Source: Desulfobacteraceae bacterium | GTDB taxonomy: Bacteria; Desulfobacterota; Desulfobacteria; Desulfobacterales; SURF-7 | Length of the DNA: 51,646 bases | Reading direction: 5' to 3' | NCBI GenBank assembly: GCA_003599865.1 | Contig: QZKS01000058.1 | Coordinates: 1-51,646, forward strand | Shown here: piece after piece, positions 34,693-51,646 of the stretch | Layout of the letters: every line of letters begins with the position of its first letter | How positions within the stretch are numbered: the stretch's first letter is position 1 | Position numbers and translations under genes: made by a program | Notes under the pieces: generated by a model | The model's database searches: none | Told to the model about the DNA's origin: nothing | What the model saw: the letters and a program-made list of their open reading frames with translations, nothing else

Positions 34693-34699
34693 ATGTTCA

Positions 34700-37384: not shown

Positions 37385-39699
37385 ACAAGAAAATCCTTAT
37401 TGTGGATGACGATGTCAGTACCTGTAAAATCCTGGAACTGGTGCTCGGGAAAAAAGGGTATGATGTGCGAACGGTCAACAGCGGAAATGCCGCTATTCTG
37501 GAAAACCGGGTGCAGTTTTTTGATATCGCCATGATGGACATTCATCTGCCGGACCGGGAAGGGATTGAGCTTTTGTCCCACTTTAAAAAGGTCTGTCCCG
37601 ATACCGCCGTGGTCATGATCACCGGAGATGCATCGGCGGAAAACGCGATCCGGGCGCTGAATGAAGGGGCGGATGCCTATATCACCAAGCCCTTCAACAT
37701 GGAATATGTGGAACACATTCTGGATCAGGTGGTTGAAAAACTGAAACTGCGGGAGGATAATCTTCTTTTAAATCGAAAGCTTCAGCAGGAGCTGGGCGAA
37801 AAAATCCGGGCTGAGGCAACCCTCATCAATAATCTGAATTTTATTCAGAAGCTGATCAATATTTTCCCCAGTCCCATCTTTTATAAGGATGCCAAAGGGC
37901 GTTATCAGGGGTGTAATACGGCATTTGAAAAATATGTGGGAAGGTCTCAGGAGGAGATTATCGGGAAGACAGACCGTGATATCGCACCCGGCGATTCGGA
38001 AAAACAGATTCTTTCCGCCGGTGACGGACTGATCCGGAATGAAGATGAACAGGAACAGGAAGCTTCCATCCAATATGCCGACGGAACGGTTCATCACATG
38101 ATTGTGAAAAAGGCGTTTTATACGGATTCGGCCGGCAAACCTGCCGGACAGTTCTGTATTATGGTGGATATTACCGGGCGGAAAAATGCGGAAAAGGAAC
38201 GGCTCAGGCTATCCACCGCAATCGAGCAGGCAACCGAGAGCATTGTGATTACGGATAAGGATTCCATCATGCAGTATGTCAATCCGGCGGTGGAAAAAGT
38301 GACCGGTTATTCACGGGAGGAATTGATCGGAAAAAAGCCTTCCATACTCAACAGCGGCCGGCATCCGGAATCGTTTTATCAGGATATGTGGCAGACCTTG
38401 TCCGAGGGAAGGGTGTGGACCGGGCATCTTGTCAACAAACGCAAGGACGGCTCCCTGTATGAGGAAGAGGCCTCCATTACACCGGTAAAGGACAATCTAG
38501 GCAATATTTCCAATTATGTGGCGGTGAAACGAGATGTGACAGAGGAGGTCCGGCAGCGCAAACAGCTTCAGGTCGCCCAGAAAATGGAAGCCATCGGCAC
38601 ACTGGCCGGAGGGATTGCCCATGACTTTAACAACATTCTGGCAGCCATCATGGGCTACTCCGAACTGGCGCAGGATGAACTCCCCAAGGGCAGCCGGGTT
38701 CGGTCCCATTTTGATGAAATTCAAAAGGCCAGTGTCCGTGCAAAAGAACTGGTGCATCAGATTTTAACCATCAGCCGCCAGGATGAGTATGAAAAGTATC
38801 CGGCACAGATTCACCTGATCATGAAAGAGGTGGTCAAGCTAATGCGGGCAACCCTGCCCGCATCCATTGAAATCAAAACGGAAATCGTGAAATGCCGGTC
38901 GGTGCTTGCGGACGCGACGCAGATTCACCAGGTCTTGATGAATCTGTGCACCAATGCCTATCATGCCATGTCGGATACCGGAGGAATTCTTGAGCTGTCC
39001 CTGCGCGAAGTCCAATTCGAGTTTTCCATTATCGTGGGAGAGATCATGCTTCTTCCGGGTGATTATGTCGAGATTGCCGTTCGGGATTCCGGACATGGAA
39101 TCGATGAGAAAACGATCGGACGGATTTTTGATCCCTATTTTACGACCAAACCCAAGGAAAAAGGAACCGGTCTGGGCCTGTCCATTGTTTACAGTATCAT
39201 CCAGCAGCATAATGGGGCGATCCGGGTGCAGAGCAAGGTGGGAAAGGGAACGGTTTTTCAGACTTTTCTTCCGGTTTATACGGATACGATGAAAAAGAAG
39301 GCCCCTGACCGGAAGCAAATTCCCGGTGGAAATGAAAAAATTCTGATTGTGGATGATGAACCGCAGCTGGCCGGCCTGGGTGAAAAAATGCTTTCTCCGC
39401 TGGGATATGCGGTCGAGATTTTTACATCTGCTGAAGAAGCCCTGAAAGCATTTCAGGCCAGACCGGAATATTTTGATCTGGTCATCACCGATATGGCCAT
39501 GCCGAAAATCAGCGGCATTCAACTGGCAGCATCCCTTCGGAATCTCAGGAACAATATTCCGATCATTCTCTGTACCGGATTTTCAGAACAGGTTACCGAT
39601 GATGTCCTGAAACAGGCAGGCATCTCAAAGATGATGTTGAAACCGCTGTCTAAAAGTGAGCTGGCATCTGCGGTCAGGACGATGCTGGATGCGGAATGA
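37381..39699 (+). CDS. Soluble hybrid histidine kinase (REC-PAS-PAS-HK-REC)
   Basis: 772 aa, no membrane segment. Receiver 1 with Asp53 ('FDIAMMDIHLPDREGIELL') and 'DAYITKPFN'; two PAS domains (about 150-270 and 275-395); HisKA His414 ('GGIAHDFNNILAAIMGYSEL'); HATPase with 'DSGHGIDEKTIGRIFDPYF' and 'KGTGLGLSIV'; receiver 2 with Asp704 ('DLVITDMAMPKISGIQLAAS'). From the HisKA onward it is strikingly similar to the preceding protein, so the pair probably arose by gene duplication. No HTH, GGDEF or other output domain is present in any of the three proteins. Confidence 0.93.
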   Translation: MNKKILIVDDDVSTCKILELVLGKKGYDVRTVNSGNAAILENRVQFFDIAMMDIHLPDREGIELLSHFKKVCPDTAVVMITGDASAENAIRALNEGADAYITKPFNMEYVEHILDQVVEKLKLREDNLLLNRKLQQELGEKIRAEATLINNLNFIQKLINIFPSPIFYKDAKGRYQGCNTAFEKYVGRSQEEIIGKTDRDIAPGDSEKQILSAGDGLIRNEDEQEQEASIQYADGTVHHMIVKKAFYTDSAGKPAGQFCIMVDITGRKNAEKERLRLSTAIEQATESIVITDKDSIMQYVNPAVEKVTGYSREELIGKKPSILNSGRHPESFYQDMWQTLSEGRVWTGHLVNKRKDGSLYEEEASITPVKDNLGNISNYVAVKRDVTEEVRQRKQLQVAQKMEAIGTLAGGIAHDFNNILAAIMGYSELAQDELPKGSRVRSHFDEIQKASVRAKELVHQILTISRQDEYEKYPAQIHLIMKEVVKLMRATLPASIEIKTEIVKCRSVLADATQIHQVLMNLCTNAYHAMSDTGGILELSLREVQFEFSIIVGEIMLLPGDYVEIAVRDSGHGIDEKTIGRIFDPYFTTKPKEKGTGLGLSIVYSIIQQHNGAIRVQSKVGKGTVFQTFLPVYTDTMKKKAPDRKQIPGGNEKILIVDDEPQLAGLGEKMLSPLGYAVEIFTSAEEALKAFQARPEYFDLVITDMAMPKISGIQLAASLRNLRNNIPIILCTGFSEQVTDDVLKQAGISKMMLKPLSKSELASAVRTMLDAE

Positions 39700-39870
39700 A
39701 GGTGAACATTTCATAAACCCCGAGTCGTCTCCGGTGTACCTGCCATACGGCCGATTTTTCCGCTGAACCCGGAAACCCTGCATTTTTTTCCTTTCCGTTT
39801 TTCTTCCCCAGGGCACGATAATTCTCTTTAACTGTTTGTTATCCTATTAAAAATTTAAATATTTTTCAGG

Positions 39871-39886
39871 TGGCACATGTTTTGCT
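39871..39886 (+). promoter_or_regulatory. Sigma54 (-24/-12) promoter of the pse operon
   Basis: TGGCAC-ATGTT-TTGCT: the invariant GG (39872-39873) and GC (39884-39885) are separated by exactly 10 nt, and the flanking bases match the TGGCAC-N5-TTGC consensus. Transcription would start near 39897, ~115 nt before the pseB fusion. An enhancer-binding protein site further upstream was not identified. Confidence 0.85.
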
Positions 39887-39900
39887 GACTGAAGTTAATG

Positions 39901-39922
39901 AAAAAGTTTCATTAAACTTTTT
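39901..39922 (+). promoter_or_regulatory. 22-bp dyad just downstream of the sigma54 promoter
   Basis: AAAAAGTTT-CATT-AAACTTTTT is a perfect 9-bp inverted repeat beginning about 4 nt after the expected transcription start. Its position suits an operator that blocks initiation or early elongation, or an RNA hairpin. The MerR-like domain encoded by the first gene is a candidate ligand; MerR proteins bind dyads of about this size, though usually inside the -35/-10 spacer. Confidence 0.55.
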
Positions 39923-40012
39923 ACCGATACACGCCGATGGATATACTAAAGGTTTCAGTGCATCTTCCAGTCTCGGATTAAAAGCAACCCAAATAAAAAA
40001 AAGGTGATTATT

Positions 40013-41224
40013 ATGAGTTATCGAATCCAGGAGGTCGGCAAAAAGATTGATGTCCCTGTATCCACTATTCGATATTGGCAGAAAGAGTTTTCCGACTATA
40101 TCAAACCATTTAAGACAGAGGGTGGGCAGCGGAGGTATTCGGAGCAGGATCTTTTTACCCTGACCCGGATCAAGGATATGCTGTACCGGAATAATAAAAC
40201 CGTCGAGCAGGCACGTGTCCTTCTGTGCAACGGAAATTCGGATGTCGGGAAGATTGACTGGACAACCCAGACGATTCTGGTAACCGGCGGCACCGGATCT
40301 TTTGGAAAACATTTCTGCCGGATCATGAATGAAAAATACAAACCAAAGGTCATTCGTGTTTACAGCCGTGATGAGCTGAAGCAGCATGAAATGCGTCAGG
40401 AGTTCGGTGATGAACGGGTGCGGTATTTTCTCGGCGATGTCAGGGATCTGGAACGGCTGAAAAGAGCCATGGTCGGGGTGGATATCGTCATCCATGCCGC
40501 TGCCTTGAAGCAGGTTCCGGCATGCGAGTACAATCCGTTTGAGGCGGTAAAAACCAATATTTTCGGCGCCCAGAACATCATCAATGCCGCCATTGATTCC
40601 GGTGTCAAAAAAGTGGTCGCGCTGAGCACGGATAAGGCGGTAAACCCCGTGAATCTGTATGGGGCGACAAAACTCTGCTCGGACAAGATTTTTATCAACG
40701 GGAATTCCTATGCCGGTGAAAAAGGAACAAGGTTCAGCTGCGTCCGTTACGGCAATGTCATCGGAAGCCGCGGCAGTGTGATTCCTCTTTTCCGGGAGCA
40801 GAAAAAGAAAGGCGAAATCACCATCACCGACGAGCGGATGACCCGTTTCTGGATTTCCCTTGATGAGGCGGTTCAACTGGTTCTGGACGGTTTGTCCCAC
40901 ATGCAGGGTGGAGAAATTTTTGTACCCCGCATCCCCAGCATGAAAATCATCGATCTGGCCAGGGCCGTGGCACCGGATTGCAGAATCAGAACCATCGGCA
41001 TACGGCCGGGTGAAAAGCTGCACGAGTCGCTGATCACGGAAGAAGACGGAAGAAATACCTTGAAGTACAACGGGATGTATATTGTCATGCCCCAGCATGA
41101 GTGGTGGGAGCGCAAGAACTACACCAATGCGACGGAACTTCCGGAAGGATTTTCCTATACCAGCGACAACAACAAAGAATGGATGACCGTTGATGATCTG
41201 AGAGCGGTGATCAGCAGCAATTAA
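40013..41224 (+). CDS. pseB: MerR-type DNA-binding domain fused to UDP-GlcNAc 4,6-dehydratase PseB
   Basis: 403 aa, ATG 40013 with AAGGTGA 6 nt upstream (a GTG at 40004 lies inside that site). Residues 1-~72 are a MerR winged helix: 'YRIQEVGKKIDVPVSTIRYW', 'GGQRRYSEQDLFTLTRIKDM'. From ~80 the enzyme is complete: NADP loop TGGTGSFG (91-98), 'SRDELKQHEM' and 'STDKAVNPVNLYGATK' with Asp207, Lys208, Tyr216 and Lys220. These sit a constant 75 residues later than in H. pylori FlaA1 (D132, K133, Y141, from memory), so the MerR part is a clean addition. PseB converts UDP-GlcNAc to the 4-keto-6-deoxy-L-altro sugar, the first step to pseudaminic acid. The frame has no stop and no internal ribosome site between the halves. 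Confidence 0.9.
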   Translation: MSYRIQEVGKKIDVPVSTIRYWQKEFSDYIKPFKTEGGQRRYSEQDLFTLTRIKDMLYRNNKTVEQARVLLCNGNSDVGKIDWTTQTILVTGGTGSFGKHFCRIMNEKYKPKVIRVYSRDELKQHEMRQEFGDERVRYFLGDVRDLERLKRAMVGVDIVIHAAALKQVPACEYNPFEAVKTNIFGAQNIINAAIDSGVKKVVALSTDKAVNPVNLYGATKLCSDKIFINGNSYAGEKGTRFSCVRYGNVIGSRGSVIPLFREQKKKGEITITDERMTRFWISLDEAVQLVLDGLSHMQGGEIFVPRIPSMKIIDLARAVAPDCRIRTIGIRPGEKLHESLITEEDGRNTLKYNGMYIVMPQHEWWERKNYTNATELPEGFSYTSDNNKEWMTVDDLRAVISSN

Positions 41225-41258: not shown

Positions 41259-42512
41259 ATGAAAAAGCATTTTCCCAAGAGACTGAACGGCAACATGTTT
41301 GTTCCCTATGGCAGGCAGACGATCACGGAAAAAGACATTCAGGCGGTCATGGCGGTGCTGCAAGCGGATTACCTGACCACCGGTCCGAAAGTGGAAGAGT
41401 TTGAAGCACGATTTTCAGAGTATGTGGACGCATCCTATGCGGTTGCCGTTTCAAACGGCACGGCCGCACTTCATGCAGCCATGTTTGCCATTGGAATCGG
41501 ACCGGGGGATGAGGTGATCGTTCCTCCGCTGACCTTCGCCGCTACGGCCAATGCCGTTGTGTATCAGGGAGGAACTCCGGTATTTGCGGATGTGAGCCCG
41601 GACACTCTTCTGATTGACCCGTTCAAGGTGATCAAAAAAATCACCGCAAAGACAAAGGCGATTATCGCCGTGGATTACGCCGGGCAGCCGTGCGATTATC
41701 TTTCTCTTCGTCTGATTGCCGAAGAGAACAATCTGTATCTGATTTCCGATGCATGCCACGCCCTTGGGGCGGAATACCGCGGCAGAAGGACCGGCGGCGG
41801 GCCGGCGGATATTACGGTTTTCAGCTTTCATCCGGTAAAGCATATCACCACCGGTGAGGGCGGCATGGCCGTAACCGATCAGAAGCTTCTGGCCGATAAA
41901 ATGAAACTGTTCCGCAATCACGGGATCACTTCGGATCATCGCAGCAGGCAGGAGACCGGGACATGGTATTACGAGATGACGGAGCTTGGCTATAACTACC
42001 GTCTTTCAGACATTCAGTGCGCCCTCGGCATCAGCCAGCTGGAACAGCTTCCGGACTTCCTGAGTGCCCGGAGAAAAATTGCTCGTCGGTATGACAAAAC
42101 ATTTTTCGGGCAAAAGATCATCCGGCCCTTATCGTCAGGCTCCGACATCTTTCATGCCTACCATCTGTATGTTGTCCGGATTGATTTCTCAAAACTGAAG
42201 GTCAATCGGAAAACCGTGTTTAAAAAACTTCATGGACAGGGTATTGGAACCAATGTCCATTATATACCGGTTCATCTTCATCCTTTTTACCGTGAAAGGT
42301 TCAACACCAGAAAGGGCCTCTGCCCGGTTGCGGAAAAAGCATATGACCAGATTCTGTCTCTGCCGATTTTTCCTTCCATGACCGATGAACAGGTGGACTT
42401 TTGTGCTGAAACCGTCATCGAGGTGATGGAATCGGCATTACCGGAAAGTTCCGTTGATACCGATATCTTTGAACCGTTTCATCATATTTCGTTAGGAGAG
42501 AGCCATGCCTGA
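41259..42512 (+). CDS. pseC: UDP-4-keto-6-deoxysugar aminotransferase PseC
   Basis: 417 aa, DegT/DnrJ/EryC1/StrS fold. It transfers an amino group from glutamate, via PLP, to C4 of the PseB product. The PLP lysine is Lys194 in 'FSFHPVKHITTGEGG'; 'SNGTAALHAAMF' and 'VDYAGQPCD' contribute cofactor contacts. 'VPYGRQTITEKDIQAV' near the N-terminus is typical of the PseC branch. AAAGGTG precedes the start. It lies 34 nt after pseB and overlaps the next gene by 8 nt. The last ~20 residues are a charged tail. Confidence 0.93.
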   Translation: MKKHFPKRLNGNMFVPYGRQTITEKDIQAVMAVLQADYLTTGPKVEEFEARFSEYVDASYAVAVSNGTAALHAAMFAIGIGPGDEVIVPPLTFAATANAVVYQGGTPVFADVSPDTLLIDPFKVIKKITAKTKAIIAVDYAGQPCDYLSLRLIAEENNLYLISDACHALGAEYRGRRTGGGPADITVFSFHPVKHITTGEGGMAVTDQKLLADKMKLFRNHGITSDHRSRQETGTWYYEMTELGYNYRLSDIQCALGISQLEQLPDFLSARRKIARRYDKTFFGQKIIRPLSSGSDIFHAYHLYVVRIDFSKLKVNRKTVFKKLHGQGIGTNVHYIPVHLHPFYRERFNTRKGLCPVAEKAYDQILSLPIFPSMTDEQVDFCAETVIEVMESALPESSVDTDIFEPFHHISLGESHA

Positions 42513-43131
42513 AAAATCGTATTCGGAAGTGTCACGACTGGAAGGTTTATGGGGAGGGGAATTCGGCAATGCCTATGTGGACCGGAATATCGATGCCCGG
42601 AACGGGCGGGAACCATTCTGGAAAAATTTGATTGCAAGGTATGAGATTCAAAATGTTCTGGAAGTCGGCTGCAATGTGGGAGCAAACCTGTTCTGGCTGA
42701 ATCAGCTCCTGGAAAGCAGATGCGTTTTTGGAATCGACATCAATGAAAAGGCATTGAAAGAGCTGAAAAAACGCAATCCGGAAGTCAATGCCGTATGGTC
42801 TCCGGCCAAAGAGCTGCCCTTCCGTGACCGGCATTTTGATCTGGTATTCACAACCGGCGTCCTGATTCATCAGACACCTCTTTCTCTTCCCCTGGTGATG
42901 TCCGAAATCGTAAGATGCTCCCGGAAATTTATCCTCTGTGCGGAATATTTTGCGGAAGATCTTACGGAGATACCCTACCGTAACGAGCGCGGCGCCTTGT
43001 TCAAACAGAATTACGGAAAAATTTATCAGGATCTTTTTCCCTACCTGAAACTGATGGATCAAGGGTTTTTGCCCAAAGAGGAAGGCGGCTGGGATGATGT
43101 GACGTACTGGCTGTTCCGGAAGCCGGGTTGA
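42505..43131 (+). CDS. Pseudaminic acid biosynthesis-associated methylase
   Basis: 208 aa, SAM-dependent methyltransferase of class I: motif I 'VLEVGCNVGANLFWL', acidic ribose contact 'VFGIDINEKAL', and 'FDLVFTTGVLIHQTP'. The N-terminal 'SRLEGLWGGEFGNAYVDRN' and the C-terminal 'GWDDVTYWLFRKP' match the methylase usually found inside pseudaminic-acid clusters (TIGR03587 type), whose sugar target is not established. The SD is within the end of pseC. Its 'CAEYFAEDLTEIPYRNERGA' is also characteristic of that family. Probably adds a methyl group to the sugar or a derivative. Confidence 0.88.
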   Translation: MPEKSYSEVSRLEGLWGGEFGNAYVDRNIDARNGREPFWKNLIARYEIQNVLEVGCNVGANLFWLNQLLESRCVFGIDINEKALKELKKRNPEVNAVWSPAKELPFRDRHFDLVFTTGVLIHQTPLSLPLVMSEIVRCSRKFILCAEYFAEDLTEIPYRNERGALFKQNYGKIYQDLFPYLKLMDQGFLPKEEGGWDDVTYWLFRKPG

Positions 43132-43196
43132 TGCGGAATTTAAAGCGCATGACCTCAACGGGGAAATCCAAAGAGTATCATCACAAGGAGAAAAAC

Positions 43197-44621
43197 ATGA
43201 ACATCGCAATCATTGTGCCCTGTATCAGACCCTATATGAACAAGGCGTATTTTCCGACCGGAATCGCCTATGTGGCCACTGCCATGAAAGAGGCCGGATA
43301 TGAATTTGATATTATCGATATGGAAGCGCACCGGCACACGGATGATGAACTTTCCATGCTTCTTCAAAAAAAATCATATGATGTGATTGCCCTGGGGACA
43401 CTGGTATCCGGTTACAAGTATGTAAAGGGTATTGTTTCCATTGCGCGGAAAACCAATCCAAACAGCGTGATCATTGCCGGAAATTCCGTGGCATCCTCCA
43501 TTCCCGAATTTCTGTTGCAGAACACCGAGGTGGACATAGCAGTCAAGGGAGAAGGGGAGAAGACCATGGTCGACATTCTCTCCGCACTGGAAAAGGGACA
43601 GCCCCTGGAAGAGATCAAAGGGATTGTATTTTCCAGAAACGGAAGGATCGTCGATACCGGGCACCGGAATCCCATTGAGGATATCAGCATGATCCCTCAC
43701 CCGGACTGGGAGCTGTTTGACATGAAACTCTACCTGGAAAAGTCGTTTCAGGATGTACCGGAACCATATCCCATTCCCAAAGAGGACATACGGGCTTTTG
43801 TCGTCAACACCGCCAGAGGATGCCCTTTCCGGTGCACCTTCTGCTATCACGTTTTTCAGTATACCCATTATCGGCGAAGGTCTGTTGAATCCATCCTGTC
43901 TGAAATCGCGACGCTTCAGGAAAGATACGGGATCAACTATGTCAATTTTTTTGATGAGCTGACCTTTTCCAACAAGCAGCAGGTGAGGGATTTCGTAGAC
44001 GGGGTGAAAGAAAGCGGCATGCGGTTTTTCTGGAATGCGGACATCCGGTCCGACCTGTTTACGGAAAAGGATCTTCCTCTCCTCCATGAGGTGAAGCAAT
44101 CCGGCTGCATGAGTTTCGGCTATTCGCTGGAATCCGGAAGCCCGGCCATTCTGAAAACCATGAACAAAAAGCTGAAGGTGGAGGATTTCAAACGGCAGAA
44201 ACTGGCTCTGGATCAGGCGGGAATTACGTCTTTTACCAGCATCGTTCTCGGCTATCCCCAGGAGACCCTTTCGACCCTCAAGGAAACCTTTGACGTTTGC
44301 TATGATCTGGATATTTTCCCCAGCACCGGCTATCTGCTGCCCCAGCCCGGAACACCCATGTTTGAAGTGGCCCGGCAAAAGGGTGCGGCCGATGACCTGG
44401 AAACCTATCTTCTGGGCATGGGGGACCGGCAGGACCTGCGGTTCAATCTGACGGATATACCGGATGAGGAGTTTCAGCGTGAGGTGGCAAAACACCTGAA
44501 ACGGATCAATGATAAGATCGGACTGGGCCTGAATGATGATCAGCTGGTCAAGACCTTTACCTTTGTGACGTCCAAGGAGACGTCCCGGTATGCGGAACCT
44601 TCATCGGCAGCCGCATCCTGA
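43197..44621 (+). CDS. B12-binding radical SAM protein in the pse operon
   Basis: 474 aa from the ATG at 43197 (AAGGAG 5-6 nt upstream; the frame is open to 43128 without similarity). N-terminal ~140 residues: cobalamin-binding-like domain ('YFPTGIAYVATAMKEAGYE', 'VIALGTLVSGYKYVK'). The radical SAM 4Fe-4S motif CxxxCxxC is Cys209, Cys213 and Cys216 ('ARGCPFRCTFCYHV'). Downstream: 'VNFFDELTFSN' and 'SGCMSFGYSLESGSP'. Such enzymes do difficult methylations, C-C or C-S bond formation; the target here is unknown but its place between the methylase and the amidotransferase points to a modified sugar. Confidence 0.87.
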   Translation: MNIAIIVPCIRPYMNKAYFPTGIAYVATAMKEAGYEFDIIDMEAHRHTDDELSMLLQKKSYDVIALGTLVSGYKYVKGIVSIARKTNPNSVIIAGNSVASSIPEFLLQNTEVDIAVKGEGEKTMVDILSALEKGQPLEEIKGIVFSRNGRIVDTGHRNPIEDISMIPHPDWELFDMKLYLEKSFQDVPEPYPIPKEDIRAFVVNTARGCPFRCTFCYHVFQYTHYRRRSVESILSEIATLQERYGINYVNFFDELTFSNKQQVRDFVDGVKESGMRFFWNADIRSDLFTEKDLPLLHEVKQSGCMSFGYSLESGSPAILKTMNKKLKVEDFKRQKLALDQAGITSFTSIVLGYPQETLSTLKETFDVCYDLDIFPSTGYLLPQPGTPMFEVARQKGAADDLETYLLGMGDRQDLRFNLTDIPDEEFQREVAKHLKRINDKIGLGLNDDQLVKTFTFVTSKETSRYAEPSSAAAS

Positions 44622-44637
44622 TCAAAAGGAGAAAGAT

Positions 44638-45855
44638 ATGATTCGATATTGCACAAGATGCGTCATGCCGGAAACCAAACCGGATCTGTATATTGACGAA
44701 CAAGGTGTCTGCAGCGCCTGCCGGAATTTTGAAAGACGCGATGAGGTCGACTGGGCCGACCGGAAAAGACAGCTTATGGAGATTCTGGAGCGCTATCGCT
44801 CGAACGACGGGTCCAACTGGGACTGTATCATACCGGTCAGCGGCGGCAAGGACAGCACCTATCAGGTGATCCGGATGCTCCAGCTCGGCATGAATCCGCT
44901 ATGCGTCACTGCTACCACGTGCCATCTGTCGGATATCGGGCGGAAGAATATTGAAAACATCCAGAATCTGGGTGTCGACTATATCGAGCTGACGACCAAC
45001 CGTGTGGTGAGAAGAAAACTCAACCGGCTGGGAATGATGCAGGTGGGAGATATCTCGTGGCCCGAACATGTGGGCATTTTTACCGTTCCGGTCCGGGCTG
45101 CGGTACAGTATAAGGTTCCCCTGATTGTCTGGGGGGAGAATCCCCAGAATGAATACGGCGGACCGGGTGCTGCGAGCAAGGACCATGTTCTCACCCGAAG
45201 ATGGCTGGAGGAATTCGGGGGGCTTCTCGGCCTGCGGGTGACCGATCTGATCGGACAGGAGGATATTGAAAAACGGCATCTGATTCCGTTTTCCTATCCA
45301 ACCGATGAAGAACTGAAATCATGCGGTGTGACGGGAATATTTCTCGGATATTATATTCCGTGGGACGGCTATTCCAATGCACTGCTTTCCCAGGCGCACG
45401 GACTGACAACCTTTCAAACCACCGTCGAAGGATCTGTGGTGAACTATGAGAATCTGGATAACTACCAGACCGGGATTCATGACTATTTCAAGTTTCTGAA
45501 ATTCGGTTTCGGACGGGCGACCGATATCGCCTGCCTGCATGTCCGAAGGGGACGGATTACCAGAACCGACGGTCTTGAGCTGGTCCGGAAGCATGACGGA
45601 AAATTCCCCTGGACCTACCTGGGCAAACCCATTGCTGAAATTCTGGAACCGCTGGATATCTCTGTCGACCAGTTTATTCAGATCTGTGACCGGTTTACCA
45701 GCAAAAAACTGTTTAAAATGGATTCCCGGGGCAACCTGATCAAGGATCGTCACGGCAATTTATGCAAGATCAATGATGACAATCCCGAAGAGGAGAAGGA
45801 TCATGGCGACGGCACTGATCATCGATTACGGCATGGGAAACTTGCATTCGGTTAG
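44638..45855 (+). CDS. N-acetyl-sugar amidotransferase (WbuX/PseA-like)
   Basis: 405 aa, ATG 44638 behind AAAAGGAG. Zinc-type cysteines at 5, 8, 25 and 28 ('YCTRCVMPETK', 'GVCSAC'), then the PP-loop ATPase motif SGGKDS (68-73) that adenylates the substrate carbonyl. Family proteins replace the acetamido oxygen with nitrogen to make acetamidino sugars, taking ammonia from a HisH/HisF-type pair, which here are the next two genes. 'NYQTGIHDYFKFLKFGFGRA' in the C-terminal half is also typical. Its end overlaps the HisH-like gene by 53 nt, so the three are tightly coupled. Confidence 0.9.
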   Translation: MIRYCTRCVMPETKPDLYIDEQGVCSACRNFERRDEVDWADRKRQLMEILERYRSNDGSNWDCIIPVSGGKDSTYQVIRMLQLGMNPLCVTATTCHLSDIGRKNIENIQNLGVDYIELTTNRVVRRKLNRLGMMQVGDISWPEHVGIFTVPVRAAVQYKVPLIVWGENPQNEYGGPGAASKDHVLTRRWLEEFGGLLGLRVTDLIGQEDIEKRHLIPFSYPTDEELKSCGVTGIFLGYYIPWDGYSNALLSQAHGLTTFQTTVEGSVVNYENLDNYQTGIHDYFKFLKFGFGRATDIACLHVRRGRITRTDGLELVRKHDGKFPWTYLGKPIAEILEPLDISVDQFIQICDRFTSKKLFKMDSRGNLIKDRHGNLCKINDDNPEEEKDHGDGTDHRLRHGKLAFG

Positions 45856-46423
45856 ACGGGCATTTGAGGAGTGCGGGGCGGAGGTTCTGATATCCGATGA
45901 CCCGAAAGATATCCGGAAAGCCACCCATATCGTCCTTCCCGGAGTCGGAGCGTTTCATGACGGCATGACAAGCCTTGTTCAATCCGGATGGTGTGAGGCT
46001 GTTCGCAGGGAATCGGAGAAGGAAGGCATTCCCGTACTGGGCATCTGCCTCGGTATGCAGCTTCTTGCGGAAAAAGGGCATGAAGGCAGAGAAACGGAAG
46101 GATTGGGGCTGGTGCCCGGCACTGTGGAAAAACTGATCCCGGTTTCATCTATGACCCGAATCCCGCATGTGGGATGGAATGAAATCTACCGGACAAGAGA
46201 GAATCCCCTGTTTGAAGGCATTCCGGATGGAACGGACTTTTATTTTGTGCACAGCTATCGTTTTGTTCCGGAAAGGCAGGAAGATGCCATTGCCATGACA
46301 CCCTATTGCGGGGAATTTGCCTCTGCGGTGATGCATCACAACGTATTCGGTGTCCAGTTTCATCCGGAGAAGAGTCAGAAATACGGGTTTCAGGTAATCA
46401 AAAACTTTCTGGCACTGAATTGA
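45803..46423 (+). CDS. HisH-like glutamine amidotransferase of the sugar-amidination set
   Basis: 206 aa, ATG 45803 with AGGAG upstream. Class I glutaminase triad: Cys82 in 'VLGICLGMQLLAEKG', His187 and Glu189 in 'FGVQFHPEKS'. The N-terminal 'IIDYGMGNLHSVRRAFEECG' and 'LPGVGAFHDGM' are as in HisH. It releases ammonia from glutamine. Because it overlaps the amidotransferase gene and precedes a HisF-like gene with a changed active site, it most likely supplies ammonia for sugar amidination, not histidine synthesis (compare WbpG-HisH2-HisF2 of Pseudomonas). Confidence 0.88.
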   Translation: MATALIIDYGMGNLHSVRRAFEECGAEVLISDDPKDIRKATHIVLPGVGAFHDGMTSLVQSGWCEAVRRESEKEGIPVLGICLGMQLLAEKGHEGRETEGLGLVPGTVEKLIPVSSMTRIPHVGWNEIYRTRENPLFEGIPDGTDFYFVHSYRFVPERQEDAIAMTPYCGEFASAVMHHNVFGVQFHPEKSQKYGFQVIKNFLALN

Positions 46424-46445: not shown

Positions 46446-47219
46446 TTGCTGAAAGTACGCATCATACCCACCCTGCTCTGGAAGGACCTCGGCCTGGTCA
46501 AGGGGATCGCATTTGACAGCTGGCGACGGGTCGGAACCGTTCTTCCGGCAGTTAAGGTGTACAACATGAGGGAAGTCGATGAACTGATTGTTCTCGATAT
46601 TACCGCCTCCCGGGAACACCGGGAACCGGATTATGAGGCGGTTGCCGAATTCTCCGGCGACTGTTTTGTGCCTCTGACCATCGGGGGCGGGATCAGGGAG
46701 ATGGACCATATCAAAAAGCTGCTGCGGTCCGGAGCCGACAAGATCGCCATTAACAGTGCGGCTTACGATGATCCGGAACTGATTACACGGGCGGCCATGC
46801 ATTTTGGTTCTCAATGTGTGGTGGCGAGCATCGATGCCCGAAAATCGGATGACGGTGCCCATTACTGCTACTCCCTTTGCGGGTCAAAACCGATGGGACG
46901 GGAAGTTGTCGCATGGGCCATGGAACTGGAAAGGCTGGGGGCCGGGGAAATTCTGATAACCTCTGTTGAAAACGACGGCACCATGAACGGCTATGATCTG
47001 GATCTGCTGCGAAAGGTATCCGAAAATGTGGGAATTCCGGTGATTGCCTCCGGAGGTGCGGGAAATTATCAGCATATGGCTGATGCCGTTTCCATCGGAA
47101 AATCTTCAGCGGTGGCGGCTGCCAGCATGTTTCATTTTACCGAGCAGACGCCCCTTTCGGCCAAGCAGTTTCTTCAGGAAAACGGCATTCCGGTTCGAAA
47201 TGCCAACATGAGGCAATAA
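46446..47219 (+). CDS. HisF-like synthase subunit with altered active site
   Basis: 257 aa, TTG start, AAGGA ~10 nt upstream. (beta/alpha)8 barrel with HisF signatures 'ELIVLDITASREHR', 'FVPLTIGGGIRE', 'GADKIAINSAA', 'SIDARKS', 'GAGEILITSVENDGTMNGYD', 'VIASGGAG'. The catalytic Asp11 of true HisF ('CLDVKDG') is Leu11 here ('TLLWKDLGLVKG'), while the second aspartate ('SIDARK') is kept. The histidine-pathway reaction should therefore be lost, and the barrel probably only channels ammonia from the HisH-like protein to the sugar amidotransferase. It lies 22 nt after that gene and 1 nt before the next. Confidence 0.88.
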   Translation: MLKVRIIPTLLWKDLGLVKGIAFDSWRRVGTVLPAVKVYNMREVDELIVLDITASREHREPDYEAVAEFSGDCFVPLTIGGGIREMDHIKKLLRSGADKIAINSAAYDDPELITRAAMHFGSQCVVASIDARKSDDGAHYCYSLCGSKPMGREVVAWAMELERLGAGEILITSVENDGTMNGYDLDLLRKVSENVGIPVIASGGAGNYQHMADAVSIGKSSAVAAASMFHFTEQTPLSAKQFLQENGIPVRNANMRQ

Positions 47220-47220
47220 C

Positions 47221-47970
47221 ATGGGAAAAACAGTCGCCATCATTCAGGCTCGTATGGGATCAACCCGTCTTCCCGGCAAGGTGATGAAAGATCTTTGCGG
47301 AAAACCGGTGCTGGAGCATGTGATCCGGCGGGTCAGCCGGATGAAGGAAATCGATGAGATCGTGATCGCTACCACATGTCTTCCACAGGATATTGTCATT
47401 GAGGAATTGTCCGAAAGGCTCTCGGTGAAATGTTTCCGGGGAAGCGAGAATGATGTGCTTTCCCGATATTATTTTGCGGCCATGGATAACATCGCGGATC
47501 ATATCGTCCGCATCACTTCAGACTGTCCGCTGTTTGATCCCGCTGTCGGGGATTCGGTGGTCCGCTTTTATAAGGAGCATGATTATGACATCGTATCCAA
47601 TGCCGGCGCCCTGGATTCCAGGCGGACCTTTCCGCCGGGCCTGGATACGGAAGTGTTTTCCTTTCCGGTTCTTGCCGAGGCCTTTCACAATGCTGTGGAA
47701 AACTACCAGCGGGAACATGTGACGCCTTATATGTATGAGGATCCGGATAACCTCGTGTTTCACTTTCATGGTGATCACGACTACTCCCATTTTCGGTGGA
47801 CTCTGGATACGGAAGAGGATTTTGAATTGATCCGCAGGGTTTATGAGGAGCTGTTTCATGGCGAGCATGATTTTTTCATGCCCCATATTGTCGATCTGAT
47901 GATCCGGAAGCCAACCCTGGCTTGTCTCAATGCCGGTATTCAGCAGAAGAAATACAGTCATGCCGGCTGA
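47221..47970 (+). CDS. pseF: PseF/SpsF-like cytidylyltransferase
   Basis: 249 aa. The nucleotide-binding start 'VAIIQARMGSTRLPGKVM' and 'HIVRITSDCPLFDP' match the SpsF/acylneuraminate cytidylyltransferase branch. It activates the finished nonulosonic acid to its CMP form before transfer to flagellin. 'DTEEDFELIRRVYEELF' close to the C-terminus is typical of this branch. It begins directly after the HisF-like stop (TAACATG). The gene symbol follows pathway position; SpsF-type proteins in other clusters have less certain substrates. Confidence 0.82.
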   Translation: MGKTVAIIQARMGSTRLPGKVMKDLCGKPVLEHVIRRVSRMKEIDEIVIATTCLPQDIVIEELSERLSVKCFRGSENDVLSRYYFAAMDNIADHIVRITSDCPLFDPAVGDSVVRFYKEHDYDIVSNAGALDSRRTFPPGLDTEVFSFPVLAEAFHNAVENYQREHVTPYMYEDPDNLVFHFHGDHDYSHFRWTLDTEEDFELIRRVYEELFHGEHDFFMPHIVDLMIRKPTLACLNAGIQQKKYSHAG

Positions 47971-47991: not shown

Positions 47992-49530
47992 ATGAATTCA
48001 TCCATACCGAAAACCATTCTGTTCCGGGCAGATGCCAATGCTGCCATTGGTTCGGGTCATCTCATGCGATGCATGGCCCTGGCACAGGCCTGTTCGGAAA
48101 AACAGATGAAAACCATTTTCGTGCTGTCCTCTTCCTCCCAGGACGCATCCGGCAGTAAGATTCTGCATGGGCTTGACATCCGGTTTGTCAGTGCTGAACC
48201 GGGGCAGTTGGATGACCTCATGCAAACGGCCGAACTGGCGGATCGGCATCAAGCCTCCTGGATTGTCGTGGACGGATATCATTTCGGCGAATCCTGGTAC
48301 CGGAACCTGAAGGAGCGGGGGCATCGCACGCTCTGCATCGATGACGGCGCTCATTTGCCGTTTTATCATTCGGATATGGTATTGAATCAAAATATTTATG
48401 CAGATGAACATCGGTATCAAAACCGATCCCCGCAGACAAGGCTTCTTCTCGGAAGCCCATATATTCTGCTCCGGAATGAATTTCTGAACCATCCGGACCG
48501 GATGAGAAAATGCCCGGATCAAGGGAAAAGGATCCTCATCACCATGGGCGGGAGCGACCCTCACAACACGACCCTGGACGTTTTAAAATGGCTGTCGAAG
48601 CTCCCGATTCCGGATCTGGTCGCTGATGTGGTTCTGGGGCCTTCCAATCAATACTTCCGGGAGATCGGACTCTTTTTGAGTCAGGTGCCTTTTGTATACC
48701 GGATTCATCAAAACGCGGCCAATATGGCATCCCTCATGGCCCATGCCGACCTTGCCGTTTCATCTGCCGGAACGACTTCCTGGGAGATGGCATACATGGG
48801 GGTTCCCAGCCTGCTCATCGCCATTGCGGAAAACCAGTACCCGGTGGCGGAAAAACTGGATTCTCTGGGCGCAGTATTTTATCTGGGGCGCTCCGGGGAA
48901 ATTTCTCCGGAACGTGCGCAGCAGGAAATCATGAGACTGATCGGTTCTCCGGATTTGCGGGAAAAACGAAAATGCATCGGGCAGGCACTGGTTGACGGGA
49001 TGGGCAGGGAAAGAGTGGTTCGGGAAATGGTGAGAAGCAGGATTGAACTGCGGCGGGCAGAGGAAGGCGATTGCCGGATGATCTATGACTGGGCCAATGA
49101 TTCCAATGTCCGGGAGGCCTCGTTCTCATCGGAAACCATATCATGGGACACGCATGTCAAATGGTTCCGGAACAAGCTGAAGGATCCGAAATGTGAAATG
49201 TATATTGCCCGGAATGAGGAAGGAGAACAACTGGGGCAGGTCCGTTTTGAGATGGATCGGAACGATGCCGTCATATCCGTCAGCCTTTCCCCTTCCTTCC
49301 GCAACAAGGGTTACGGCAGAGAGATCATTGAGATGGGAACCCGGAAGATCCTCGCGACAAAGAATGTAAAGCAGGTTCGGGCCCTGATTAAAAAAGACAA
49401 TTTTGCATCCATCCGGGCCTTTGAAAAAGCATCATTTGAAAAAAGCCGTTTGGATGAATGTTCAGAGGAGCAGGCATTCTGCCTGGTCTACCGGAAGCAG
49501 AGCGGGGAAAACCATGCACATCACCATTAA
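47992..49530 (+). CDS. pseG: PseG-PseH fusion: UDP-sugar hydrolase plus N-acetyltransferase
   Basis: 512 aa. Residues 1-~345: PseG, releasing the 2,4-diacetamido-altrose from UDP; diagnostic 'FRADANAAIGSGHLMRCMAL', 'WIVVDGYHFGESWYR', 'ILITMGGSDPHN' and 'DLAVSSAGTTSWEMAYMGVP'. Residues ~350-512: GNAT acetyltransferase (PseH type) with 'IELRRAEEGDCRMIYDWAND', 'SLSPSFRNKGYGREII' (acetyl-CoA loop) and 'ALIKKDNFASIRAFEKASFE', which acetylates the C4 amino group. Order in the chain is reversed relative to pathway order (PseH acts before PseG). GGAAGG ~12 nt upstream. The last 17 nt overlap pseI. Confidence 0.92.
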   Translation: MNSSIPKTILFRADANAAIGSGHLMRCMALAQACSEKQMKTIFVLSSSSQDASGSKILHGLDIRFVSAEPGQLDDLMQTAELADRHQASWIVVDGYHFGESWYRNLKERGHRTLCIDDGAHLPFYHSDMVLNQNIYADEHRYQNRSPQTRLLLGSPYILLRNEFLNHPDRMRKCPDQGKRILITMGGSDPHNTTLDVLKWLSKLPIPDLVADVVLGPSNQYFREIGLFLSQVPFVYRIHQNAANMASLMAHADLAVSSAGTTSWEMAYMGVPSLLIAIAENQYPVAEKLDSLGAVFYLGRSGEISPERAQQEIMRLIGSPDLREKRKCIGQALVDGMGRERVVREMVRSRIELRRAEEGDCRMIYDWANDSNVREASFSSETISWDTHVKWFRNKLKDPKCEMYIARNEEGEQLGQVRFEMDRNDAVISVSLSPSFRNKGYGREIIEMGTRKILATKNVKQVRALIKKDNFASIRAFEKASFEKSRLDECSEEQAFCLVYRKQSGENHAHHH

Positions 49531-50581
49531 CAACCGGAAGATCGGACCGGATCACCCGGTGTATATCATCGCGGAAATGTCGGCCAATCATCATCAGGAT
49601 TTCCACCAGGCCGTCCGTATTCTGGAGGCGGCCAAGGTTGCCGGGGCGGATGCCGTCAAGCTGCAAACCTATACGCCGGATACCCTCACCATGGATTGCG
49701 ACAATGCGTATTTTCGCATAAAGGGAACCATCTGGGAGGGGAAGAACCTGCATCAGCTCTATGGAGAGGCCTTTACCCCATGGGAGTGGCAGCCGAAACT
49801 GAAAGACATTGCCGATCAACTGGGGCTTGATCTGTTTTCCACTCCTTTTGATGATTCCGCCGTGGATTTTCTGGAACAAATGGGAGTGCCTGCCCACAAG
49901 GTTGCTTCCTTTGAGATTGTCGATTCCGCATTGCTGCGGAAAATCGGTACCACCGGGAAACCGGTGATTCTATCCACCGGCATGGCTTCCCTGCGTGAAA
50001 TTGATGAAGCGGTTTCCCTGCTGCAGAATGCGGGAACCACGGATATCGCCCTTTTAAAATGCACCAGCGCTTATCCGGCAGCACCGGAGGATATGAACTT
50101 GCGGACCATCCCTCATCTTTCCCATGCCTTCGGCCTTCCGGCAGGACTTTCCGACCATACCACCGGAATCGCCGCACCTGTAACTGCCGTGGCTCTCGGT
50201 GCCTGCATCATTGAGAAGCATCTCACCCTTTCCCGTGCGGATAAAGGACCGGACAGCGCATTCTCACTGGAACCGGCCGAATTTCAATCCATGGTTACGG
50301 CGGTGCGGGAAGCGCAGAAAGCCCTTGGCCGGATCTGCTACACCCTTTCGGAAAAAGAAGCCGCAAGCCGCATTTTCCGGCGGTCGCTGTTTGTGGTCCG
50401 TGATATGAAAGCCGGCGAGGAATTTACCGAAAAAACAGTCCGCTCCATCCGGCCCGGGTATGGTCTGCATCCCCGTTTCCTCGATACCATTCTCGGACGC
50501 CGGTCGTCATGCTCTATTGAAAAAGGAACACCCCTGGACTGGAAGCATGTGGGAGCAGCATCCCTGCATTCGCCGGAATGA
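49514..50581 (+). CDS. pseI: Pseudaminic acid synthase PseI
   Basis: 355 aa, NeuB fold. It condenses the free 6-deoxy-AltdiNAc sugar with phosphoenolpyruvate to give pseudaminic acid. Motifs: 'IIAEMSANHHQDFHQAVRI', 'ADAVKLQTYTPDTLT', 'FSTPFDDSAVDFLEQMGVPA', 'VILSTGMASLREI', 'IEKHLTLSRADKGPDSAFSL'. The C-terminal 60 residues are the SAF (antifreeze-like) lid: 'RRSLFVVRDMKAGEEFT', 'GLHPRFLDTILGR'. ATG 49514 lies within the end of pseGH and follows GGGGA. With PseB-C-GH-F this completes the core route in the operon. Confidence 0.94.
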   Translation: MHITINNRKIGPDHPVYIIAEMSANHHQDFHQAVRILEAAKVAGADAVKLQTYTPDTLTMDCDNAYFRIKGTIWEGKNLHQLYGEAFTPWEWQPKLKDIADQLGLDLFSTPFDDSAVDFLEQMGVPAHKVASFEIVDSALLRKIGTTGKPVILSTGMASLREIDEAVSLLQNAGTTDIALLKCTSAYPAAPEDMNLRTIPHLSHAFGLPAGLSDHTTGIAAPVTAVALGACIIEKHLTLSRADKGPDSAFSLEPAEFQSMVTAVREAQKALGRICYTLSEKEAASRIFRRSLFVVRDMKAGEEFTEKTVRSIRPGYGLHPRFLDTILGRRSSCSIEKGTPLDWKHVGAASLHSPE

Positions 50582-50667: not shown

Positions 50668-51646
50668 ATGGGTACAAAAAAAACAGAGAATTTTTTCGAT
50701 GCCAATATGGCTGCTCTGAAGGAGGCTCACCCGCATGTCTGGAGCCTTTTTCAGGAAAACCGTTTTGAGCCCATGGGGGAAATCCGCCGATCTCCATCCG
50801 GCAAACTCAATCTGGTTGTAACAGATAAGGAAGGCCAATCAGCCTTCCTGCATGATCAGAATGATCCGGAAGCGGAAGTGCCGCAGTTTCTGGCGATGGT
50901 GCCGGAAGAATCCACCGGCTTTATCGTCATGGTCGGGATGGGACTGGGGTATGCCCCCATGACCATTCTGAAAGAAAGGCCGTTGATCCGTCATCTTGCG
51001 GTTTTTGACCGGAATCCGGGCATCCTGCTTCAGGCCATGCAGCATCTGGATCTGACCTCCATGCTGTCCGACCCGCGTCTGCTTCTGGGAATCGAACCGG
51101 AGCCCGACATCCACCGGATTCTCATACCGGCAACCCGGGCGCTCCTGGTCGAGGCCATTCATGCCTTGAAACATGTTCCGTCTTTCCGTTTTGATCCGGC
51201 CGGCTATGATGAGCTCTATGACAAGGTATTTTCGTTTGTCAATGACTGCAATGTAGGCGGCGGGACCCTGTTCGCCTTTGGCGGCGCCTTTCTGGCAAAC
51301 CGTCTGGCCCATCTCACCGCCATGCCCCATAACCGGCTGATCGATCATGTGAAGGGAGCCTTCACCGGCAAGCCCGCCATTCTCGTGGCCGGAGGTCCCT
51401 CCCTGGACAAAAACATCCATGTGCTTGCCCAGGCCAAGGGCAAGGCGGTTATCATCGCTGTGGACACGGTGCTGACCAAACTGCTCAAACACGGGGTGCG
51501 GCCGGATTTCGTCACCTCCATTGATATGGAGGAGTTTACATTTGAGAAGATTGCCGGTGCCATTCCGATGCTGAACCATACGGACCATATCGGGCTGATC
51601 TGTTCCTCCTGGGTGACCCCCCGGGTGCCCAAAACCTTTCCTGCGT
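50668..51646 (+). CDS. Maf/DUF115 motility-associated glycosyltransferase, N-terminal part
   Basis: Runs off the right edge; 326 codons visible from an ATG with AGGAGG 7 nt upstream. The Maf/DUF115 signature is 'GKPAILVAGGPSLDKNIHVL' followed by 'AVIIAVDTVLTKLLKHGVRP' and 'DFVTSIDMEEFTFEKI'. Maf proteins transfer nonulosonic acids such as pseudaminic acid to Ser/Thr of flagellin, or assist in it. An N-terminal ~190-residue domain with 'FIVMVGMGLGYAPMTIL' and 'LIRHLAVFDRNPGIL' is also part of the family. It is the last visible gene of the sigma54 operon; flagellin lies 22 kb to the left. Confidence 0.9.
   Translation, partial: MGTKKTENFFDANMAALKEAHPHVWSLFQENRFEPMGEIRRSPSGKLNLVVTDKEGQSAFLHDQNDPEAEVPQFLAMVPEESTGFIVMVGMGLGYAPMTILKERPLIRHLAVFDRNPGILLQAMQHLDLTSMLSDPRLLLGIEPEPDIHRILIPATRALLVEAIHALKHVPSFRFDPAGYDELYDKVFSFVNDCNVGGGTLFAFGGAFLANRLAHLTAMPHNRLIDHVKGAFTGKPAILVAGGPSLDKNIHVLAQAKGKAVIIAVDTVLTKLLKHGVRPDFVTSIDMEEFTFEKIAGAIPMLNHTDHIGLICSSWVTPRVPKTFPA

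Follow-up and report, generated by a model that had tools for sequence, protein, structure and literature searches.

The merR-pseB gene is a conserved gene form in which a MerR-type winged helix-turn-helix (HTH) is joined in one reading frame to a complete PseB sequence, and it lies behind a promoter module whose array of AAGTT half-sites is associated with one type of MerR domain. The encoded protein is probably an autoregulating trigger enzyme, an enzyme of pseudaminic-acid synthesis that would repress its own pse-maf operon by binding this array. The gene is contained in a stretch of 51,646 nucleotides, called the window here. Its features are as follows.

40013..41224, + strand: merR-pseB fusion gene, 403 amino acids, a single uninterrupted frame from the ATG at 40013 to a stop codon ending at 41224
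40002..40007, + strand: ribosome-binding site AGGTGA, 5 nt before the ATG at 40013
40019..40225, + strand: MerR winged HTH, residues 3-71 (Pfam match, predicted structure)
40229..40264, + strand: linker, residues 73-84, of which 73-78 have a pLDDT below 50 in the AlphaFold model
40265..41209, + strand: PseB domain, residues 85-399 (NCBIfam match, fold match, catalytic residues)

An in-frame GTG at 40004, preferred in the open reading frame listing, is an alternative start. The earlier note on this DNA described one frame holding a MerR HTH and a complete PseB, and the uninterrupted 403-residue frame and the profile searches that it proposed confirm this description. Pfam MerR_1 matches residues 3-71 (E 9.4e-14; 51.7 bits, cut-off 21.6), Pfam MerR matches residues 4-42 (30.4 bits, cut-off 28.2), Pfam Polysacc_synt_2 matches residues 88-358, and the NCBIfam PseB equivalog TIGR03589 matches residues 85-399 with 511.8 bits, above its cut-off of 407.75. 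The AlphaFold model of the fusion (mean pLDDT 87.5, pTM 0.77) has as its top fold match 2gn4 (TM 0.92 by target length), the UDP-GlcNAc C6 dehydratase that is also the nearest solved sequence. This enzyme, Helicobacter pylori PseB/FlaA1, shares the whole catalytic domain and the catalytic residues with the fusion, and differs in having no DNA-binding domain. Asp207, Lys208, and Tyr216 show no variation across an alignment of 37 sequences (37 of 37) and are shifted by 75 from Asp132, Lys133, and Tyr141 of H. pylori, in agreement with the displacement of about 75 residues noted earlier. The fusion protein contains a complete PseB, with predicted 4,6-dehydratase/5-epimerase activity.

The N-terminal part shares the winged HTH, with its conserved recognition helix and wing, with MerR-family regulators such as GlnR (7tea) and the MerR-family protein 5gpe. 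Unlike these regulators, the fusion lacks both a MerR dimerisation helix and an effector domain. In the AlphaFold model the HTH closes with a short helix at residues 64-72 in place of the long MerR dimerisation helix, and PseB follows the end of the HTH at about residue 72 with the C-terminal sensor domain of the family also absent. The motifs STIRYW and GGQRRY, which are DNA-contact motifs, are conserved in the HTH.

Judged by its gene content, merR-pseB is the first gene of a pseudaminic-acid operon that continues into maf, and the locus is one of flagellin glycosylation. The following genes lie downstream.

41259..42512, + strand: pseC aminotransferase (TIGR03588 above cut-off)
42505..43131, + strand: Pse-associated methylase (TIGR03587 above cut-off)
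43128..44621, + strand: B12-binding radical SAM protein (domain match)
44590..45855, + strand: WbuX-type N-acetyl sugar amidotransferase, PseA-like (TIGR03573 above cut-off)
45773..46423, + strand: HisH-type amidotransferase (profile matches)
46446..47219, + strand: WbuZ/HisF-type protein, marginally under the cut-offs of both models
47221..47970, + strand: cytidylyltransferase, PseF-like (PF02348; name inferred)
47992..49530, + strand: PseG joined to a GNAT acetyltransferase, PseH-like (profile matches)
49403..50581, + strand: pseI, pseudaminic acid synthase (profile matches), true start probably near 49559
50668..51646, + strand: N-terminal third of a Maf-like flagellin glycosyltransferase (Maf_flag10_N and MptE-like above cut-off), the gene being interrupted by the contig end

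The Maf-like product scores far under the NCBIfam PseD cut-off. The rest of its gene is found at the end of another contig of the same genome (C6), where it is followed, on the same strand throughout, by genes for a TPR/glycosyltransferase-like protein, a methyltransferase, a glycosyltransferase, and a flagellin (Flagellin_N, E 5e-44). A pseC match occurs in 25 of 27 fused loci, 24 of them with the match within about 0.6 kb of the fusion; the exceptions are a locus with a weak distant match only (L050), one that continues for 0.9 kb past the gene (L061), and one that ends within it (L062).

Ahead of the gene are three overlapping or closely spaced elements that together form the promoter module.

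39871..39885, + strand: sigma54 promoter TGGCAC-N5-TTGC, a pattern match found in the same place in most fused loci
39892..39919, + strand: array of AAGTT half-sites, the proposed operator (AAGTT at 39892, AAGTT at 39904, AACTT at 39915)
39913..39939, + strand: sigma28-like promoter TAAACTTT-N12-GCCGATG, overlapping the last half-site; the pattern was devised after the sequences had been seen

The array is positioned between the -12 element of the sigma54 promoter and the -10 element of the sigma28-like promoter and covers the -35 box of the latter. Transcription from sigma54 would be expected to start near 39897, within the array. The classical layout of a MerR operator, placed between -35 and -10 boxes with a spacer of 19-20 bp, is absent from the module, which is a further difference from MerR-family regulators. 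The composite array pattern is matched perfectly at a single place in the 5.0-Mb genome, the site in the window, and with two mismatches at one other; the controls give 5. Sigma54-like sites number 56 in the genome and 7 in the controls, and none of the 55 outside the module has two half-sites within the next 60 bp, so the array as a general sigma54 element was rejected. The other eight occurrences of AAGTTN7AAGTT in the genome all lie inside open frames, which is a weak argument because the site of the window also lies in a frame on the opposite strand.

The module is associated with the fused pseB genes. AAGTTN7AAGTT occurs within 250 bp upstream of 15 of 32 fused and 0 of 87 unfused genes, and a sigma54 box followed by AAGTT within 45 bp occurs upstream of 22 of 32 and 0 of 87, where the 32 include near copies from the genus of the window (L009, L010, and L013). 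Five of the 87 unfused upstreams have a sigma54 box, and in these the array is absent. When the motif is built with near relatives left out by group, 26 of 32 fused upstreams score above all 87 unfused ones, the failures being L042, L047, L048, L054, L058, and L069. Three further fused loci had no part in the motif: L197 and L198 carry a sigma54 box with an AAGTT pair, and L199 has a sigma54-like box with single AAGTT sites. Looser rules narrow the contrast, to 20/29 fused against 7/87 unfused under one rule and 22/31 against 2/69 under another, and a descent-corrected test of module against fusion has 3 pairs only and low power.

The array also accompanies MerR proteins that are not fused to anything. 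The nearest free MerR (L195, 126 residues) is 49% identical over residues 3-55, and its own gene is preceded by a sigma54-like box and AAGTTN7AAGTTN4AACTT. Within 600 bp upstream, among loci with enough upstream sequence, the module is present at 11 of 18 free MerRs with the wing GGQR[RH]Y, not found at the other 7, and present at 0 of 21 with other wings (p 2e-5). These counts exclude L269, which is a fragment of a fused gene, and two rows that were repeats (L253 and L235), the values with them being 13/20 and 0/22. As the wing rule was suggested by 6 of the 18, the free MerRs found after it may be taken separately, and they give 5/12 against 0/21 (p 0.003). One of the loci (L229) was negative in 300-400 bp and positive at -447 once the stretch was widened. 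The other MerR in the genome of the window has a wing of a different type. On this sequence comparison, the array associates with the GGQR[RH]Y type of MerR, fused or free, with pseB nearby or not. Two loci, L253 (G308) and L296 (G124), have two tandem modules of sigma54 box and AAGTT before a single free MerR gene.

Among the four genes that follow MerRs of the GGQR[RH]Y type are LegB and LegC and, twice each, glucose-1-phosphate cytidylyltransferase with CDP-glucose 4,6-dehydratase and, under cut-off, UDP-GlcNAc 3-dehydrogenase-like proteins. A GDP-mannose 4,6-dehydratase gene overlaps the stop codon of one such MerR, and in one genome fliD is found about 1.5 kb away. Given these nucleotide-sugar genes, a free MerR near the head of a cluster is the likely parent of the fusion.

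Two patterns, both devised after many loci had been seen, were used to scan 221 genomes: a sigma54 box, N4-30, and either AAGTTNAAGTT or AAGTTN7AAGTT. They give 12 + 12 sites, of which 20 are distinct, and the backward controls give 0. Fourteen of the 20 lie upstream of MerRs of the GGQR[RH]Y type (6 fused, 8 free). Of the 18 sampled genomes in which this MerR type was detected, 13 contain sites, compared with 4 of the other 203 (Fisher p 6e-14, hand count), which is not a clean test because the patterns were fitted. Two sites have no MerR directly behind them and are possible further targets: one is 350 bp before an epimerase gene (L294, G136) and the other 431 bp before a FlgN/FliT-like frame that is under cut-off (L290, G051). 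Another precedes a split-off maf operon in a congener (G001), and the remaining sites are in G070, G117, and G221. In the congener pseI is the last gene of the pse operon, and 42 kb separate the fusion from a cmcI-radical SAM-maf-TPR operon, unlike the genome of the window, where maf comes after pseI. Each of the two operons has its own, almost identical site of sigma54 box and array. Module copies at both halves would fit shared control, and recent copying of the promoter would explain their likeness.

An alternative to an operator is that the array forms part of a flagellar promoter, made up of the sigma28 -35 box and a downstream site for an activator of the FleQ/FlrC type, with the MerR domain otherwise employed or left over. 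Enhancer sites of FleQ/FlrC-type sigma54 activators do occur downstream of sigma54 promoters, and the sequence of the last half-site agrees with a sigma28 -35 box. A loose sigma28-like pattern overlaps the array in 15/29 fused and 8/17 free MerR loci and in none of 87 unfused pseB genes and 20 other MerRs (shuffled controls 0.1-0.5); in its strict form the pattern is found in 1/29 and 5/17. However, a -35 box accounts for one half-site and not for two or three, and the array is missing from the other 55 sigma54-like sites and from the five unfused pseB genes with a sigma54 box, while it tracks the MerR wing type even where there is no pseB. The HTH is, in addition, under purifying selection, but is less constrained than PseB: in the 8 of 11 pairs for which dS could be estimated its dN/dS is 0.02-0.21, and that of the PseB part is 0.03-0.10. 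A promoter part of this kind is unlikely, though it has the most in its favour among the alternatives.

MerR-PseB might instead bind the array and activate transcription. MerR activators act on overlong promoter spacers, and the spacer of the sigma28-like promoter is N12, rather than N11, in the window and several fused loci and N11 or N12 elsewhere. Against this, the array covers the expected sigma54 start and is upstream of the sigma28-like spacer rather than inside it. Activation is the less credible of these two alternatives and quite improbable.

That the gene is misread, with translation starting internally and the MerR part a separate product or joined to pseB by sequencing, is very improbable: matches to unfused PseB homologues begin at about residue 80 and an ATG stands at codon 56, but codons 57-104 hold no ATG, GTG, or TTG and the same frame is seen in 27 of 80 loci that come from separate assemblies, including that of the isolate Desulfatibacillum alkenivorans DSM 16219 (L046). 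The only such codons among the first 110 are 1, 56, and 105. Codon 105 is within the PseB fold, and codon 56 is within the MerR part with an AAGGA nearly abutting it, which makes a separate PseB product unlikely. A frameshift and an internal start, the two outcomes that the earlier note had said would overturn the fusion, are in this way rejected and judged unlikely, respectively, and an assembly artefact is rejected with the former.

The 80 loci are those kept from a genome-contig scan that had more candidates, and the record titles of the 27 fused ones are Desulfobacterales, Desulfobulbaceae, Syntrophaceae, "Deltaproteobacteria", or "Proteobacteria". Further fusions are present among 389 genomes of the class (13 full-length and 1 fragment) and 395 genomes of the phylum (7). 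The architecture, for which no described case had been known to the earlier note, thus recurs in other genomes. One fused candidate with a match from residue 17 (L071) turned out to be unfused.

In a PseB tree of 100 rows, 31 fused and 7 unfused sequences form one group (SH-aLRT 99). A single clade of all fused genes is rejected (p-AU 7e-6), and the tree requires 5 changes. The unfused L064, L065, L066, and L127 are placed among fused rows and are read, with reserve, as losses of the HTH, as the tree contains long branches and a number of weakly supported ones. No credible MerR remnants (best E 0.58) precede L064-L068, L072, and L126-L130, and phmmer found no separate MerR frame beside unfused pseB in the loci examined. 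A phage origin of the fusion was rejected, with 0 of 84 phage records covering 80% of the query, as was a plasmid origin, none of the matches listed (20 of 792) beginning before residue 58. A lone 74-residue MerR resembling the N-terminus of the fusion is encoded at 966-1190 of L192 (G180), with its own sigma54 box and array; the DNA is about 71% identical to the fused locus L120, and a second MerR fragment follows at 1461-1634. These pieces are probably the relic of a partial duplication.

Repression by MerR-PseB itself is the reading we favour. The PseB part would catalyse the first step of pseudaminic-acid synthesis, and its oligomer, presumably a hexamer like that of H. pylori PseB, would bring together a number of short MerR headpieces, each without the dimerisation helix and sensor domain usual in the family. 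These headpieces may bind the array at 39892-39919, over the expected sigma54 start (~39897) and the sigma28-like -35 box, and would most likely block both promoters. Binding in this position should repress, so that the first enzyme would limit its own pse-maf operon. The module probably descends from that of a free MerR regulator, which is found near the heads of nucleotide-sugar clusters behind the same kind of promoter and array, and in pse loci the free MerR would have become fused to the first enzyme. The suggestion that the enzyme regulates its own operon has in this way gained support from sequence, in that an array at its own sigma54 and sigma28-like promoters is tied to the MerR type, fused or free; the array also lies inside 39830-40010, the region named earlier for a DNA-binding assay. 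The accompanying suggestion, a link to sugar-nucleotide or NADP state, is more tentative. It is possible, if rather doubtful, that substrate, NADP, or product on the PseB oligomer sets the hold of the headpieces on the array at the tandem sigma54/sigma28 promoter, which would match Pse synthesis, Maf, and possibly flagellin to sugar supply. The free MerR relatives would serve other surface sugars in a like manner, through a sensor that is a separate component.

Enzymes that double as DNA-binding regulators have precedents. PutA binds DNA through a ribbon-helix-helix fold. PutA, BirA, and NadR are described as trigger enzymes, and PutA binds solely at its own put operon (PMC8249747, PMC6978683). 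The likeness is in the combination of metabolic enzyme and regulator, the fusion also joining enzyme and DNA-binding domain in one chain. The enzymes themselves are different, and the fusion, known from sequence alone, has a MerR headpiece and a sigma54/sigma28-like promoter. At the operon of the fusion, the conserved array associated with the MerR domain is a candidate binding site, and the fusion is best read as a self-regulating enzyme of the PutA/BirA type whose enzyme part is apparently a nucleotide-sugar dehydratase.

In H. pylori, flagellar genes are split between sigma54 and sigma28, and Pse synthesis proceeds in the order PseB, C, H, G, I (PMC5368276). That hierarchy resembles the present locus in shared sigma54/sigma28 control and in Pse on flagellin, and differs in that no MerR-type regulator appears in the part of the account used here (PMC5368276). 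A survey of sigma54 reports flagellar genes in Desulfobacteria, and MerR is not discussed in the portion drawn on (PMC12316311). In the open-licence literature no title or abstract was found that describes a MerR-PseB fusion or the sigma54/AAGTT module. If the proposed reading is true, a nucleotide-sugar enzyme joins the few enzymes known to control the genes that encode them. A regulatory module of sigma54 promoter, AAGTT array, sigma28-like promoter, and one MerR wing type would then be recognised near the heads of surface-sugar clusters among sulfate reducers and related bacteria, and the matching of flagellar-sugar supply to flagellin synthesis would become testable.

Two features of the neighbouring genes are of separate interest. 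The B12-binding radical SAM protein encoded at 43128-44621 is retained in the nearest relatives and might carry out a sugar modification that has not been described. Three large consecutive PAS/histidine-kinase genes, two of them with receiver domains, immediately precede the pse operon at 32047-39699.
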